DNA of 23,874 bases from IMG/VR virus record IMGVR_UViG_3300009163_000183, positions 1 through 23,874 of that record; one strand, written 5' to 3'. The translations under genes and the position numbers were made by a program. Origin of the DNA: a virus. The notes below the pieces were generated by a model that was not told the DNA's origin, made no database searches, and saw only the letters and a list, made by a program, of their open reading frames with translations. How positions within the stretch are numbered: position 1 is the stretch's first letter; every line of letters begins with the position of its first letter. Below are positions 2,518-17,891 of this stretch, one piece after another.

Positions 2518-2525
2518 TATCTTTG
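2518..2525 (+). promoter_or_regulatory. Bacteroidota-type -7 promoter for groEL
   Basis: TATCTTTG matches TAnnTTTG, in the context TTTATATCTTTG that recurs exactly at 6531-6542. It ends 26 bases before the groEL ATG at 2552. A TTGACA-like sequence (2469-2474) is too far upstream to be its -33 box. Confidence 0.65.
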
Positions 2526-2551: not shown

Positions 2552-4162
2552 ATGATAGATAGTGCAGGGTACTCACCCAAGAACTTACATTTCGGTGAAG
2601 AAGGCCGAAAGAAACTAATCAAAGGAGTTACGACAATGTCTAATGCTGTTAAGAGCACATTAGGACCGGGCGGTAATACTGTCCTAATAGAGTCGGTTAA
2701 TCACTTGCATGGTATAACTGTTACCAAGGATGGTGTAACTGTTGCTCGTTCTATTGACTTGTTAGACCCTGTCGAGAACCTTGCTGTAAGGATGATGAAA
2801 GAGGCGGCAGACAGAACGGCAACGAGTGCCGGAGATGGTACGACCACAGCGATTGTATTGACGGAGTCTTTAGTACTAGGCGGTCTTGAGTTAATAACTG
2901 ACAAGCACAACAGGACAGAGGTCCTGCGAAACATATCGGAGATAACTACAAAGGTGGTGGACAAGTTAAAGGAGAAGTCTATAGATGTAACGGATGACAT
3001 GATTGTTGACGTTGCAACTATCTCTGCAAACAATGACAGAAGTATTGGGACGATAATAGCTGATGTATACAACGACGTTGGTAAGTCGGGCATGGTGACT
3101 GTTGAGCGTTCACAGACATCGGACACATATGCAGAAACAACAACAGGAATAAAAGTAGACAGGGGATATGGCTCCCCATTGTTCATAAACGACCAAAAGC
3201 GTGACGAGTGTATACTTGAGGATACTATGATACTAGTAGCTGACGTGGACATAAACAGTGTCCTTCAGATAGAGAACGTGTTGAAACCAATCATCAACGA
3301 AGGTAAGAAGTTATTAATCATAGCACCTTGCAATGCAAATGTCTTAAATACATTGGCGGCAAATGTCATGAAGGGTAACTTAAAGATATGTGTAGTAGCT
3401 CCTCCAAACTTTGGATACAAGCAACACGAATTAATGCAGGATATTGCCATTAGCGTTGGGGCTACTTACTTCAGTGAAGGCACGGGGGATGACTTGAGTC
3501 ATATTACTTATGATGACTTGGGACATGCTTCAAAGGTAATTGTTGGTCGTGACAAGACGGTGATACTAAAGTCAAACGAAAACATAAACCAACCCGAGAT
3601 TGACGAGCGTGTAAAGCAACTGTGGGACGCCCATAAACTAGCGAAGCAAAAGAATGACAAGGACTTTATTGTTGAACGCATCGCATCTCTAACAGGTGGT
3701 ATAGGTGTAATATTTGTTGGTGGGAACACTGACTTGGAGCAAAAGGAGTTGTATGACCGAGTTGATGACGCAGTCTGTGCAGTACGTTCTGCTTTAGAGG
3801 AGGGTATATTGTCAGGGGCAGGGAAGTCATTGTATGAGATAAGCTTCGATGAGTTGCTTAGTGGAGTAGGTAGTGAGGAGCATAGTGTAGCGTGTGAGAT
3901 ATTTAAGGCGGCACTACAAGAACCCTTGACTCAGATACTAAGAAATGCAGGGCTATCTGTTGAGAGTATATACAACGGAGAAGAAGCGAATGGCTTTGGA
4001 TACAACTTAAAGACAATGGAGATGGGTGACTTAATTTCAATGGGTGTCATTGACCCACTAAAAGTAACCCGAAGTGCACTGCAGAACGCTGTAAGTGTAG
4101 CAACGACAATACTAAGTACAAACGCTATTATTACAATGGCAAGGACATATGAGTCACAGTAA
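2552..4162 (+). CDS. groEL: Phage-encoded group I chaperonin GroEL (536 aa)
   Basis: An ATP-driven ring chaperonin, close to the usual 545-residue length. Visible hallmarks, in order: STLGPGGNTV (35-44) and VTKDGVTVA (57-65) of the ATP site, GDGTTTA (94-100) with the nucleotide-contacting Asp95, an apical domain at about 190-375, and RVDDAVCAVRSALEEG (403-418), where Asp406 aligns with the catalytic Asp398 of E. coli. The equatorial domain closes with DPLKVTRSALQNA (501-513). Two departures stand out: the usual GGG loop after EEG is SGAGKS (421-425), and there is no C-terminal GGM-rich tail, the protein ending MARTYESQ. It has its own promoter and is followed by HNH and groES genes that overlap in series. 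Phage chaperonins are known to help fold capsid or other phage proteins; which client is used here is unknown. By-hand counting gives 28 of 60 G+C at 2881-2940, richer than later genes. Confidence 0.95.
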   Translation: MIDSAGYSPKNLHFGEEGRKKLIKGVTTMSNAVKSTLGPGGNTVLIESVNHLHGITVTKDGVTVARSIDLLDPVENLAVRMMKEAADRTATSAGDGTTTAIVLTESLVLGGLELITDKHNRTEVLRNISEITTKVVDKLKEKSIDVTDDMIVDVATISANNDRSIGTIIADVYNDVGKSGMVTVERSQTSDTYAETTTGIKVDRGYGSPLFINDQKRDECILEDTMILVADVDINSVLQIENVLKPIINEGKKLLIIAPCNANVLNTLAANVMKGNLKICVVAPPNFGYKQHELMQDIAISVGATYFSEGTGDDLSHITYDDLGHASKVIVGRDKTVILKSNENINQPEIDERVKQLWDAHKLAKQKNDKDFIVERIASLTGGIGVIFVGGNTDLEQKELYDRVDDAVCAVRSALEEGILSGAGKSLYEISFDELLSGVGSEEHSVACEIFKAALQEPLTQILRNAGLSVESIYNGEEANGFGYNLKTMEMGDLISMGVIDPLKVTRSALQNAVSVATTILSTNAIITMARTYESQ

Positions 4163-4661
4163 TTGCAGGAAGTGTGACAAAGAGTTTGTTCCTAAAAAGG
4201 GAGCGATAAACTATTGTAGCATATCTTGCAGGAACACGCGGAGTTTTTCAACCCAAACGAAGGAGAAGAAGAGTTGTATAACTAAAAGAAAGTGGTTAGA
4301 TGGGGCTTATTCTTTGGTTGATTGGGACAAGGCAAATGGTTCTGAAGAGAAGAGGTTCAAGCAACTTGAGTCTTGGAAGAAAAAAGCTTATGATAGACTA
4401 TTTAATGGGGAGAAGTTACACATACAAACCTTAAGAAAAATATTAATAGTAGATGTAGAGAATTGTTGTGAGCTATGTAACACTTCAGAATGGTTAGACA
4501 ATCCTATAACACTTGAGGTCCATCACATAGATGGCGACAACAAGAACAACGAGTTAACAAATTTACAAATACTTTGTCCGAATTGTCACTCACAAACGGA
4601 CAACTTTAGAGCTAAAAACATAAAAAATAAAAGATGCAACCAATTGGGAAGTACATTGTAG
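4149..4661 (+). CDS. HNH endonuclease with N-terminal zinc finger, between groEL and groES
   Basis: A 170-residue protein. The N-terminus has a four-cysteine zinc knuckle (Cys6, Cys9, Cys23, Cys27, in CRKC and CSISC). The C-terminal half is a classical HNH nuclease: CELC (107-110), EVHHIDGDNKNN (123-134) with the His pair at 125-126, TNLQILCPNCHSQ (137-149) with Asn138 and His147. The second CxxC pair (143/146) completes the structural zinc site. The middle (about 45-100) is Lys/Trp-rich and probably binds DNA. The ATG lies 14 bases inside groEL, and the end overlaps the groES start by 28 bases, so the three genes are likely translated in series. Free-standing HNH genes of this kind are usually homing endonucleases that spread between related phages. 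That role here is inferred from size, motif and position. The chaperonin genes on both sides appear intact. Confidence 0.9.
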   Translation: MSHSNCRKCDKEFVPKKGAINYCSISCRNTRSFSTQTKEKKSCITKRKWLDGAYSLVDWDKANGSEEKRFKQLESWKKKAYDRLFNGEKLHIQTLRKILIVDVENCCELCNTSEWLDNPITLEVHHIDGDNKNNELTNLQILCPNCHSQTDNFRAKNIKNKRCNQLGSTL

Positions 4662-4891
4662 TAAAAAACATTGACGAAGAGATTAAAACTGAGTCGGGAT
4701 TGATTTTATCAGGCGAGGATGCCAATCAACTGAGGTACAAACGCGCTGTTGTGCAAAAATCAGGCACAGATGTGTTGGTTATCAACGAGGGTGACGAGAT
4801 ATATTACGACAAGGGTCGTAGTTTCACCATGATAATCAATGATATTCAGTGTACAGTCATCACCGAGAACGATGTAGTGGTGGTATTATAG
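4634..4891 (+). CDS. groES: GroES-like co-chaperonin (85 aa)
   Basis: The product starts MQPIGKYIVVKNIDEE, matching the first strand of the GroES fold, followed by a mobile-loop-like stretch IKTESGLILSG (17-27), whose Leu-Ile-Leu (23-25) takes the place of the Ile-Val-Leu that docks on GroEL. Then come RAVVQKSG (37-44), INEGDEIYYDKG (50-61) with the conserved Gly-Asp turn, and the closing strands CTVITENDVVVVL. It is about 12 residues shorter than E. coli GroES, mainly because the roof hairpin is short. It overlaps the HNH gene by 28 bases, and its end overlaps the convergent regulator gene by six bases. With the GroEL upstream it forms a complete phage chaperonin pair. Fold assignment is by pattern and context, and I am confident of it. 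Confidence 0.85.
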   Translation: MQPIGKYIVVKNIDEEIKTESGLILSGEDANQLRYKRAVVQKSGTDVLVINEGDEIYYDKGRSFTMIINDIQCTVITENDVVVVL

Positions 4892-5329
4892 TTTATTTAC
4901 TGTCCTTTCCTTACCTTTGAAGGACTTGTTCATCTCCATAATCATATTGCGGTATACTTTGTCGGTATACTTCACATTTTTCTCAAACATAGTGTTGCCA
5001 CTACCCATTGGTATCTCCTCACCGCTAAGTTTCTTGTATATTGAGGTAATCATCCTGCTTGTCTTGTACGGCAGTTCATATATCGCCCTACTTCCTTTAA
5101 ATCCCCTACGAAATACAACTATCCACCCATCTCTTAGCAGGGTATCGAACCTATTCACGTTCCAACTAACAAGTGCATCGAACTCTTTGAACTTATCTTT
5201 TGTGAAGTACTGCTCGGAGTACAAGAATAGCAGTATGTCAAGGTCTGCTTGTGTTAGTCCGTACTTATTTTTGATGTAATATCTTATTACACGCCAATAT
5301 TTTAGATAGTCATTACCTATTTTTTTCAT
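4886..5329 (-). CDS. Winged-helix (MarR-like) DNA-binding regulator
   Basis: A 147-residue protein starting MKKIGNDYLKYWRVIRYY. The segment NKYGLTQADLDILLFLYSEQ (21-40) looks like the first helices of a MarR-type winged helix. KDKFKEFDALVSWNVNRFDTL (45-64) fits the helix-turn-helix, and DGWIVVFRRGFKGSRAIYEL (67-86) a basic beta wing. A helix follows (TSRMITSIYKKLSG), then a charged tail. It is the only minus-strand gene between the chaperonins and the structural genes. It converges on groES, with a six-base overlap, and diverges from the plus-strand genes starting at 5394. The 64-base divergent gap holds a promoter and a small inverted repeat, so it may control that promoter or itself. Fold by pattern recognition; role inferred. 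Confidence 0.7.
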   Translation of the reverse strand: MKKIGNDYLKYWRVIRYYIKNKYGLTQADLDILLFLYSEQYFTKDKFKEFDALVSWNVNRFDTLLRDGWIVVFRRGFKGSRAIYELPYKTSRMITSIYKKLSGEEIPMGSGNTMFEKNVKYTDKVYRNMIMEMNKSFKGKERTVNKL

Positions 5330-13760: not shown

Positions 13761-15434
13761 ATGGCAAAAATAAGTACATATGTTATTAATACAGTACCTA
13801 CCACAAGCGATATGGTTATTGGTACTGATGTAAATTCAGCTAATGAAACTAAAAATTTTCTAGTTGGTGATTTACTAGCATTAATTCCAAATGCTACAGG
13901 CCCTGCCGGCCCGGCAGGTCCACAAGGTATTCAAGGAGTCACAGGTCCTACCGGCCCACAAGGAGCGACGGGTCTTCAAGGCCCACAAGGTCCAATAGGC
14001 CCTACCGGCCCACAAGGCGTTCAAGGCCTAACAGGACCAATAGGAGTCACAGGCCCTCAAGGTCTTCAAGGAATTGCCGGACCACAAGGGGTTGTAGGAT
14101 TAACAGGCCCAATAGGCTTACAAGGTAATCAAGGACCTCAAGGTATACAAGGACTAATAGGTGTCACAGGCCTTCAAGGTATTCAAGGACCTCAAGGTCC
14201 TCAAGGTGCAGCAAGCACGGTAGTAGGGCCAACAGGTCCTGCAGGTCTTCAAGGTGCAGTAGGTGCTGCAGGCCCACAAGGAATTACAGGAGCAATTAGC
14301 CCCGCAGGATTAAATTGGCAGGGCGCTTGGAGTGCCTTAAATACATATGTTATAGATGATGCTGTTGGTTTTGGTGGAGCTAGTTATTTTTGTATAGATC
14401 CTGTTGGACCATCAGCTACAAACCCTTCTTTAGACCCTACAAATTGGTCCTTACTAGCAAATCAAGGTCCCGCAGGAGCTGCCGGTCCAATTGGATTAAC
14501 AGGTCCTGCAAGCACAGTAGCAGGCCCCGCAGGCCCTGTAGGCCCTGCCGGGCCTGCCGGTCCTACAGGTGCTCAAGGGGTTGTAGGATTAACAGGCCCA
14601 ATAGGCCCTCAAGGACCAATAGGCCCAATAGGATTAACAGGTGCTACAGGAGGACAAGGACAAACAGGTCCAATAGGACCTATAGGTCCAACGGGCTTAA
14701 CGGGTGCAACAGGCCCTACAGGAGGACAAGGACAAACAGGACCACAAGGCCCCGTAGGTCCCGCAGGAGCTATAGGGTTAACAGGTTTAACAGGCCCTGC
14801 CGGTCCAATAGGACTAACAGGCCCTCAAGGCCCAATCGGTCCAATAGGACCAACAGGTCCTCAAGGCCCAATAGGCTTAACGGGTGCGACCGGTGCTAAT
14901 AGTAATAATAATATAGGAAGGGCTTATCAAGGAGGTTATATAGCAGCGGAATGGGTAGAAGGACCTTCACTTACTAAAAAAGTGCTTATTGTAATAAATC
15001 CGCAAAATGCAGTTTCTAGGAAATGGACTGTACAAACTCAAGTTAATAATACTGTTCCTGCTCCCGGAGCATTAAATCGGTATGATGGTCAACCAAACAC
15101 AACAGCAATAGTTGCACAGGCTGCAGGGTGTATTGGTTGCGATCCATTTGCAGCAGAATATGCTAATAATTTAACTACGGGTGGCTATACCGATTGGTAT
15201 TTACCTTCAATAGAAGAATTAAATATGGTTTATAATGCAGCAGTACCAATTACTAGGTCATTAGCGGCAAGTGGGTTTGCTCCTCCTTACTTTAACTTTG
15301 CTTCCGGTTATTGGAGTTCAAATGAGAATAGTAACAGCAGTGCTCTTTATTATAATTTTATTTTAGGCGATATAAGTACTATTGTAAAAAGTTTGGCAGC
15401 ACTCACTTTACCGGTTAGAATAGCTAATATTTAA
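13761..15434 (+). CDS. Collagen-like tail fibre with chitin-binding-like and Lcl/DUF1566 lectin-like domains (557 aa)
   Basis: Domain order: an N-terminal anchor (1-45, [20 protein letters not shown]) shared with the next gene; a collagen Gly-X-Y run (46-180); a module at 183-233 ([34 protein letters not shown]) that looks like a CBM5/12 carbohydrate-binding domain; a second Gly-X-Y run (234-378); and a C-terminal domain (385-557) with [26 protein letters not shown] and SGYWSSNEN, the pattern of Lcl/DUF1566. Such domains have a lectin-like fold and in the Legionella Lcl protein bind glycosaminoglycans. There is a CxxC at 457-460. Gly-X-Y repeats would make a trimeric stalk. The repeat X/Y positions are rich in Pro, Gln, Ile and Thr. 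Role inferred: host-binding tail fibre. Confidence 0.85.
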
Positions 15435-15436
15435 TT

Positions 15437-17095
15437 ATGCCAAAAATAAGTACATATATCGTTAATGCAGTGCCTACCATAAGTGACATGCTTATTGGTA
15501 CTGATGTAGACTCATATATGACAGATGAAACTAAAAATTTCTTGATTAGTGATTTAACATCATTAATAACAGTAAATCCTGTAGGACCACAAGGTCCAAT
15601 GGGTCCACAAGGTCCGCAAGGACTAATAGGCGCAACCGGAGCTCAAGGAATTCAAGGTCTTTCAAATTTAACAGTAGGTATTCAGGGAGTTACCGGCCCA
15701 CAAGGGGTGCCGGGAATAATAGGTGTAATAGGTGCAACAGGAGCAACAGGTCCATTAGGAAATCCGGGCACACAAGGCGACCCCGGACCAATAGGACCAA
15801 TAGGCGCAACCGGAGTGCTAGGTATTCAAGGTTTTCCGGGCACTCAAGGACCGATAGGTTTAACCGGTGCAGCAAGCACGGTAGTAGGACCAACAGGTCC
15901 TGCAGGTACAATACCGGGACCAATAGGTCAACAAGGACCAATAGGTATTGTGGGCTTACAAGGTTCTCAAGGAATAGCAGGAGTTAATGGTCCTCAAGGA
16001 TTAAATTGGCAAGGTACTTGGAGTGCTGCAGGTGTATATGTTGTAGATGATGCTGTTGAATATTTAGGTTCTAGTTATTTTTGTTATAATAATGTTGGAC
16101 CTATAGGCACAAACCCTGTTTTAGATACTGCACATTGGGCTATATTAGCAATGATAGGTGCAAATGGTCCAATCGGTCCAATAGGACCAACAGGTCCTCA
16201 AGGACAAATAGGGCCAACAGGAATACAAGGTCCTGCAGGTCCAATCGGTCCCGGTACTCAAGGTCCACAAGGACTAACAGGTTCACAAGGGGCAATAGGT
16301 ATAGTAGGTCCCCAAGGTCCAATTGGACTAACAGGAGCTACAGGAGTAATAGGTGCACAAGGCATTCAAGGAGTTATAGGTTTACAAGGTGCAGTAGGCC
16401 CTCAAGGTTTACAAGGACCAATAGGTTCTCAAGGAATAGCAGGTATTCAAGGACCTCAAGGTCCTACAGGTGCAGCAGGTACAATCGGACTTATAGGCCC
16501 TACAGGCGTTGTAGGTTCACAAGGGGTAGCAGGTCCCGCAGGCCCTGTAGGTCCTGCCGGACCCATAGGTTTACAAGGTCTTGATAGCACTTCTAATATA
16601 GGTAGGTTCTATGAAGGGGGTTGGATAGCAGCGGAATGGGTAGAAGGACCTTTACTTAAAAGATTTGTACTTATTGTAGGAGAACCTTTACCGAATAATC
16701 AGTGGACTCTTCCTGCCTATTGGTTTTCAGTTGTCCCACCTCCCGGAGCAATAGATTTTGTTTTTGGCGTGGCAAACACAGCGGCCATAACTAGTCAAGC
16801 AGGAGTCGGTTTATATGCAGCATATGATTGTGAAAATTTAGTATCCGGTGGCTATACCGATTGGTATTTACCTTCATTATGGGAATTAAATATGGTTTAT
16901 AATTCATTAGTACCAATTAATAGGTCAAGAATAGCAAGTGGGTTTTTTCAAATTCCTTTAGGTATTTATTGGAGTTCTACGGAGTATCTTTCGCCGTATG
17001 CTTATGCGGCAGATTTTTCGTATCCTCCTTCCGGCGGAGCGTATGCAAAAAATACTCCTCTTCCGGTTCTTCCTGTTAGAATAACTAGTATTTAA
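15437..17095 (+). CDS. Second collagen-like tail fibre, paralogue of the previous gene (552 aa)
   Basis: The same plan as the gene before: anchor (1-45, [20 protein letters not shown]), collagen run (48-188), CBM5/12-like module (188-238, [31 protein letters not shown]), collagen run (240-382), and an Lcl/DUF1566 domain (388-552) with [27 protein letters not shown] and [11 protein letters not shown]. The framework of the lectin-like domain is conserved between the two proteins, while the stretches between motifs (about 410-465 and 500-545) differ strongly, as expected if they bind different receptors. Only two bases separate it from the first copy, and both copies end TATTTAATTATG at the boundary to the next gene, which suggests tandem duplication of the whole gene. 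Gly/Ile/Pro-rich composition is caused by the repeats. Confidence 0.85.
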
Positions 17096-17097
17096 TT

Positions 17098-17325
17098 ATG
17101 GAAATAAGAAAAATTTCAGTAGGTCCTGATTATAAAGGAGGCGCAATGCATTACATTGTAGGTCAAAAAGTTTTAAATGAAACGTATGAAATACATTTAA
17201 TTAAACTTGAAGACATTACCCAATCTATAAAAATATTTATTATAAACGAATCAAATGAAATTCTTTTATGGAAAGAATTTACACAAACTATTCCAATCTC
17301 TATTGAATACAATATATTTTATTAA
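17098..17325 (+). CDS. Conserved 75-aa phage protein beside the packaging genes
   Basis: It starts MEIRKISVGPDYKGGAMHYI and continues VGQKVLNETYEIHLIKLEDI, with a C-terminus around LLWKEFTQTIPISIEYNIFY. The pattern (MEIRKIS-GPDYK--AMHY-VGQ, then IHLIK and LLWKEF) is one I recall from many Bacteroidota phage genomes, where it is annotated as hypothetical. It is all beta-strand-like and has no membrane segment. Its stop overlaps the next ATG as TAATG, so it is read with the head/packaging genes. Function unknown. Confidence 0.7.
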   Translation: MEIRKISVGPDYKGGAMHYIVGQKVLNETYEIHLIKLEDITQSIKIFIINESNEILLWKEFTQTIPISIEYNIFY

Positions 17326-17891
17326 TGAAATCCCCATTTTATTTTATTGTTGAATCTTTAATAAATAAGAGGTACAACAATACAAAAACCATTAGTGGAC
17401 TAGAAGTTATTACAAGTACATCTGAAGAAGACCATATATCTTCAAATAGATTTGCTAAGGTAATAGAAGTTCCATTAGGTTACAAAGGCCCAATATCTTC
17501 AGGCGACACATTGCTTGTTCATCATAATGTATTTAAGTACTATTATGACATGAAGGGAAATCAAAAGAGTGGTAAAAGTTTTTTTAAAGACGACAAGTTC
17601 TTTATTGAACCCGACCAATTCTATATGTATAAAAAGGATGACACATGGTATTCTTACGACAAGTATTGTTTTGTTAAGCCAATAGATGCTATTGACTCTT
17701 ATATAAAGAAACCATTTAGTGATGAGCCTTTAATGGGTGAGATGTTATATCCAAATGATTATTTAATTAGTAAAGGAATAAACAAGGGTGATATAGTATG
17801 CTTTTCACCCGACAGCGAATATGAGTTTACTATTGACGATGTAAAAATGTACAGGATAATAGACAATCAAATAACAATCAAATTAAATTAA
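17325..17891 (+). CDS. Possible GroES-like protein, maybe two fused GroES-fold parts (188 aa)
   Basis: No family is certain. Residues 20-70 read like a GroES fold: a flexible stretch with a hydrophobic triplet (SGLEVITSTSEEDHIS), then NRFAKVIEVP and ISSGDTLLVHHN with the Gly-Asp turn. A long insertion (70-120) follows, and then the end, LYPNDYLISKGINKGDIVCF and EYEFTIDDVKMYRIIDNQI, resembles the last strands of GroES (KxGDxVxF, then FxIDxxxYxIxxxxI). It could be one GroES domain with insertion or two partial ones. T4 gp31, a phage-made GroES, is needed for capsid assembly, and this gene lies just before terminase, portal and scaffold, so a similar role would make sense. Spacing: TAATG overlaps on both sides. 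Confidence 0.45.
   Translation: MKSPFYFIVESLINKRYNNTKTISGLEVITSTSEEDHISSNRFAKVIEVPLGYKGPISSGDTLLVHHNVFKYYYDMKGNQKSGKSFFKDDKFFIEPDQFYMYKKDDTWYSYDKYCFVKPIDAIDSYIKKPFSDEPLMGEMLYPNDYLISKGINKGDIVCFSPDSEYEFTIDDVKMYRIIDNQITIKLN

Follow-up and report, generated by a model that had tools for sequence, protein, structure and literature searches.

Our analysis indicates that an old chaperonin operon harbours a nuclease gene with independent mobility, which is a known kind of event in a new place. The window, by which we mean the whole stretch of 23,874 bases analyzed here, is a fragment (virus record IMGVR_UViG_3300009163_000183). It carries groEL, an HNH endonuclease gene and groES, so arranged that the 5' end of the HNH gene lies within the 3' end of groEL and its 3' end lies within groES. 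The main features are as follows.

2518-2525, plus strand: Bacteroidota-type -7 motif TAnnTTTG (TATCTTTG) upstream of groEL, a putative promoter
2552-4162, plus strand: groEL, phage group I chaperonin, 536 aa (PF00118 and PHROG 5725)
4149-4661, plus strand: HNH endonuclease gene, 170 aa (PHROG 10822, E 7.7e-24; PADLOC homing-endonuclease model, E 3e-16)
4467-4598, plus strand: predicted HNH catalytic and zinc-binding region, CELC...EVHHIDGDNKNNELTNLQILCPNCH (sub-cut-off Pfam HNH match and direct reading of the sequence)
4634-4891, plus strand: groES, 85 aa (PF00166, AlphaFold2, Foldseek and alignment)
4886-5329, minus strand: orf147 (PHROG 17028), 147 aa, conserved, tail to tail with groES
17325-17891, plus strand: second GroES-like gene, 188 aa, near the terminase gene (PHROG 13932 'co-chaperonin GroES', E 1.6e-25)

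The sequence-only reading had described the three-gene arrangement and its overlaps, and we recovered the ORFs at identical coordinates, all three intact, with overlaps of 14 nt (groEL/HNH) and 28 nt (HNH/groES). Because 11 distinct contigs share both the arrangement and the site, and because no HNH copy is broken by a stop codon and the mean HNH dN/dS is ~0.20, the arrangement is not an assembly accident or a product of chance. The window comes from a phage of bacteria of the Bacteroidota type. Its terminase and portal genes belong to a type known from Flavobacterium, Cellulophaga, Tenacibaculum, Maribacter and Azobacteroides phages, and are closest to those of MW202828 and the Elemovirus phages. 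The genome-collection scan matched six metagenome-assembled fragments, and no host was found in it. We also observed two adjacent genes for collagen-like proteins (13761-15434 and 15437-17095), with G-x-y repeats and similar C-terminal domains, which are perhaps paired tail fibres.

The title of a 2017 paper by Marine et al., cited in PMC7185714, reportedly describes viral chaperonins as prevalent in virioplankton. We found more than 470 IMG/VR contig stretches that encode relatives of the window GroEL, and merging of duplicates left 115 distinct GroEL loci. In 113 of these, groES lies downstream of groEL on the same strand; in the remaining two, the portion of the contig examined showed no groES. 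The gene order in the 113 loci is groEL then groES, whereas Immutovirus has groES then groEL. Since groES follows groEL in 113 relatives and in the cultured Elemovirus, the pair is an inherited operon and not one moved by homing. In other words, these phages have the linked pair as a regular feature, which makes it unexceptional here. The idea that a phage GroEL with a linked GroES is rare holds in part only: GroEL is matched by just 249 of 50,697 phage records, some bacterial sequences included, but the IMG/VR stretches and the 113 linked loci speak against rarity within this group. GroEL-bearing marine Bacteroidetes phages have already been reported (PMC5332604). The neighbouring orf147 adjoins groES in 109 loci with a median spacing of -13 nt, and is very strongly constrained in the HNH clade (dN 0.003, dS 0.29, dN/dS ~0.01).

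The HNH gene has a much narrower distribution. It is present in 11 contigs, all from the close clade of the window and with an identical boundary each time, and is absent from 102 of the 113 distinct junctions, where the pair is still present. Its presence amounts to one change on the GroEL tree, and the gene was gained once, in the ancestor of the lineage of the window. The sister pair L009/L010 (87% GroEL identity) has no HNH gene, and groEL and groES are 1 nt apart. Set side by side, these nearest, empty relatives and the 11 occupied contigs with their shared boundary agree with the earlier view that the gene was fitted in without damage to either groEL or groES. The boundary DNA is CATATGAATCAAACTAATATGAAGCC in L009 and, in the window, CATATGAGTCACAGTAATTGC, the HNH gene and then AAAAGATGCAACC. 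The HNH start codon is an out-of-frame ATG that already exists in the groEL end of the empty relatives; the final residue of the window GroEL is Q instead of N, and the rest of its C-terminus equals that of L009. No otherwise near-identical phage pairs with and without the HNH gene were found, the nearest empty site being at 87% in GroEL, so a recent homing event was not caught.

The Pfam HNH models match residues 107-150 of the HNH protein only below the cut-off (17.4 vs 21.4 bits), and the catalytic motif EVHHIDG...N...LCPNCH is intact. Its relatives in other phages are HegA/F-TflIV-type nucleases, several of which adjoin tRNA genes, and on the basis of its sequence the gene looks like a free-standing gene of the homing-endonuclease type. 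We also considered a group I intron or RNA element around the HNH gene and rejected it: the Rfam models have no match in the window, and neither groEL nor groES is interrupted. In the HNH clade, dN/dS is ~0.20 for HNH, 0.08 for groEL and 0.07 for groES, showing that the HNH gene is under purifying selection; its protein changes faster than its neighbours (dN 0.064, vs 0.020 for groEL and 0.014 for groES). This selection, together with intact HNH genes in 11 of 11 contigs and the HNH protein of HK97, which works with the terminase (PMC10448857), would fit an HNH protein that cooperates with the chaperonin or the packaging machine and is selected for that role. However, the HNH gene is absent from all other relatives, its dN exceeds those of groEL and groES, and in this genome it does not lie near the terminase gene. 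We regard such a partnership as very improbable.

Comparison of gene trees revealed that HNH alleles have been exchanged between phages without the flanking chaperonins. L003 and L005 are sisters in both groEL halves (100/99 and 100/98) and in orf147 (99/98), and weakly so in groES (77/81), but this grouping is rejected by the HNH data (AU p 3e-4). Conversely, the HNH gene groups the window with L002, L006 and L005 (support 100/99.8), and this group is rejected by the upstream DNA, both groEL halves, groES, orf147 and the downstream DNA (AU p 4e-5 to 0.013). The conflict can be localized in L005.

4252-4505, plus strand: core of the L005 conversion tract, where L005 has the window-type HNH allele and mostly L003-type flanks

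The diagnostic sites of L005 are 25 window-type vs 8 L003-type in the HNH gene, and 25 vs 42 in the flanks (Fisher p 5.6e-4). A comparison of L004 with L006 likewise showed a spike of divergence in the HNH gene, though their flanks are similar. These conflict tests used groups chosen once the trees were known, and the whole region recombines often; the groEL, groES and downstream trees are partly discordant as well. For these reasons our claim is limited to separate movement of the HNH gene; homing is not thereby proven.

These results also bear on the proposal, made in the sequence-only reading, that the HNH endonuclease could carry groEL and groES from one phage to another by homing. The gene does sit between the two, and the free-standing endonucleases of T4 are known to co-convert their flanks (PMC2988022). 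Against this, the pair occurs without the HNH gene in 102 of 113 junctions and in Elemovirus, so that it is present regardless of the nuclease, and the HNH alleles pass from one phage to another, with both flanks retaining a history different from theirs. We therefore rejected this proposal, which we consider very improbable.

Next, the junction itself was compared among the 113 loci. It is tight in 26 (-20 to 35 nt) and holds 95 to 3552 nt in the other 87. The ORF clusters found there include the PHROG 13182 family, RyR, a Tad2-like protein, a class II synthetase-like protein, a PD-(D/E)XK nuclease and a crAss001_48-domain protein; apart from the Tad2-like protein, most occupants are without an assigned function. 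On the tree of 111 GroELs the content needs a minimum of 44 changes, and different inserts lie beside near-identical GroELs (L049/L051 and L038/L039). That the groEL-groES junction acts as a cargo slot within the operon is thus well supported. It is not a unique hotspot, a notion that we ruled out, since the orf147-orf96, orf96-orf111 and groES2-orf93 junctions vary too.

Members of the 85-residue PHROG 13182 family lie in the junction of 40 loci (e.g. L011, L020 and L076) and occur once elsewhere in ~1.4 Mb of flanks. A role for this family as a chaperonin-specific partner is not favoured, as Bacillus phages have relatives, despite the 40 junction copies against one elsewhere in these genomes. 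Tad2-like (Thoeris anti-defence) proteins are encoded in the junctions of L060 (PF11195, E 7.1e-24), L039, L031 and L032, and RyR-domain proteins (PF02026) in those of L061, L014, L022, L038, L195 and L213. Separately, a gene of ~155 residues follows groES2 in L020, L040, L043, L044, L065, L076 and L078 and is absent in the window; by eye it resembles 2-oxoglutarate/Fe(II) oxygenases, and its position is a second variable slot.

Such turnover raises the possibility that the HNH gene is ordinary, non-homing cargo that entered an expression slot by recombination, either illegitimate or homologous, with a possible role in competition among phages or in takeover of the host. The inserts of many families in 87 of 113 junctions, the repeated changes of content, the different inserts beside near-identical GroELs and the recombination throughout the region are all consistent with this. 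However, the strongest conflict does not extend beyond the HNH gene, the tract ends inside it, and the divergence between L004 and L006 spikes in the HNH gene despite similar flanks. We consider ordinary cargo unlikely, but it deserves to be kept in mind. A further, speculative and rather doubtful idea is that the junction is a dedicated promoter-served slot in which putative counter-defence and accessory genes are swapped, with HNH-type nucleases helping to drive the turnover by conversion.

We then analyzed the putative expression signals of the operon. TAnnTTTG is the known -7 motif of Bacteroidota promoters. Of 109 loci, which are related to one another, 101 have it in the 90 nt before groEL, where simple base shuffling predicts 7.7; upstream of groES it shows no enrichment (3 of 111 loci vs 3.7 expected). 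Both strands of the window together contain 49 such motifs vs 35 expected, and the TATCTTTG form occurs at 2518, 6535 and 8063, each time shortly before genes. The motif at 2518-2525 is probably the promoter of the operon, and its distribution suggests a single promoter for groEL, the insert and groES. A separate groES promoter inside the HNH gene was considered and rejected, given the lack of enrichment of the -7 motif upstream of groES and sigma-70-like sites at chance level.

Both chaperonin genes encode recognizable proteins. GroEL matches PHROG 5725 (E 1.7e-133), PF00118 over the full length of the Cpn60 domain (188.6 bits, cut-off 34.3) and NF009487 (484.6 bits, above the cut-off of 352), and scores below the cut-off of the equivalog model TIGR02348 (451.9 vs 582.1 bits). 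It can be aligned end to end with solved GroELs, the best being a reconstructed ancestral chaperonin of the Fibrobacteres-Chlorobi-Bacteroidetes group. In an alignment with E. coli GroEL, whose reference sequence was checked by length only, T30, L31, G32, P33, K51, D52, D87, T89-T91, I150, N153, D398 and D495 match, so that the nucleotide-pocket residues and the catalytic D398 are conserved. The apical groove differs from that of E. coli at L234E, E238K and A241I, which are constant in most of the compared relatives. The E. coli-type inter-ring contacts (R452/E461 and K105/E434) are not conserved in this alignment and the GGM tail is absent; both belong to the double ring of E. coli and are not obligatory for every group I chaperonin. 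A single-ring form of the phage GroEL is possible from these residues.

GroES scores 35.7 bits against PF00166 (cut-off 21.1) and is under the cut-off of all NCBIfam GroES models. Its AlphaFold2 model (pLDDT 89.9) matches the Cpn10 structure 5opx in Foldseek (TM 0.78) as well as T4 gp31, indicating that the Cpn10 fold, on which the idea of an intact pair depended, is kept; the alignments for the structure models were built from the fetched loci only. The segment KTESGLILSG, with GLIL where E. coli has GIVL, is a predicted hydrophobic mobile loop for GroEL binding, and its G22 and L25 are invariant across 52 sequences. In the alignment, the phage protein lacks the roof hairpin segment that its E. 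coli counterpart has, and is about nine residues shorter there. That the two proteins work together is plausible, given that GroEL has conserved ATPase residues and GroES the Cpn10 fold. The second GroES-like protein gave a lower-confidence AlphaFold2 model (pLDDT 72.5). Foldseek matched this model best to the chains in 7ekq that are tandem co-chaperonins, Cpn20 among them; judging from this model, the protein is probably a tandem co-chaperonin. Its gene is conserved among 21 of the fetched loci and is also present in Elemovirus, Cellulophaga and Maribacter phages; the Elemovirus counterpart, annotated 'chaperonin cpn10', has an equivalent position.

Taken together, we think it likely that the window shows an inherited chaperonin operon with a free-standing HNH passenger copied by short-tract conversion, for which the chaperonins are the docking site and not the cargo. 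In this account, an uncultured group of ~60-kb podoviruses, relatives of Elemovirus, has inherited the pair as an operon. A single Bacteroidota-type promoter ahead of groEL would drive it, and it would give the phage a chaperonin and co-chaperonin of its own. A free-standing HNH gene of the homing-endonuclease type would have entered exactly at the boundary of the groEL stop and the groES start, taking an existing out-of-frame ATG of groEL as its start, and, as a passenger, would share the expression of the operon, probably via translational coupling. In mixed infections, its product would very likely nick or cleave, close to the junction, alleles that lack the HNH gene or differ from it, so that its own gene is copied by short-tract gene conversion. 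The observed core of this account comprises the intact genes, the single origin, the empty sister site, the conflict of the HNH gene alone with both flanks and the purifying selection. The account is further supported by empty junctions beyond the sister lineage, the tract inside the HNH gene, the HegA/F-TflIV-type relatives, the PADLOC model, the T4 precedent and the motif found upstream of groEL and not of groES. It is weakened by the sub-cut-off Pfam HNH scores, and the HNH gene may since have given up homing and been retained for some other function.

This account separates a conserved phage chaperonin operon from a mobile passenger, two things that are confounded in a single sequence. Since one occupant is Tad2-like and most others have no known function, the groEL-groES boundary is a place to seek new accessory and counter-defence genes of phages; we regard this cargo-slot pattern as a more interesting lead than the HNH case. 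The operon is experimentally accessible because a cultured relative, Elemovirus with Flavobacterium, exists.

Among known systems, this Elemovirus (Flavobacterium phage vB_FspP_elemoA, MT497017) resembles the window in its groEL-first pair, which overlaps by a base, a second cpn10-like gene near the terminase gene, a genome of ~60 kb and a related terminase. It differs in that nothing lies between groEL and groES, the pair is on the strand opposite to its neighbours and GroES identity is ~30%. The closest annotated relative, Podoviridae sp. ctfjg026 (MW202828), shares the gene order (identities: GroEL 61%, GroES 60% and terminase 77%), but its groEL and groES are adjacent, and another HNH gene follows an orf147-like gene annotated as a repressor. 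Free-standing nucleases between conserved phage genes are a known event (PMC2988022, PMC10448857), and T4 has 12 such endonucleases (PMC2988022). Like the window gene, the T4 seg/mob genes occupy intergenic sites between conserved genes and have relatives with empty alleles (PMC2988022), whereas the HNH gene of the window is a candidate of this kind and sits in a chaperonin operon. HegA/F-TflIV of phage T5 shares the HNH domain family, with ~42% identity over residues 71-158, but is found at another genomic site, and the match spans about half of the window HNH protein. Finally, T4 gp31 is a phage-encoded co-chaperonin with the GroES fold (1g31, Foldseek TM 0.69). It partners the host GroEL, whereas the window encodes a phage GroEL next to the co-chaperonin.
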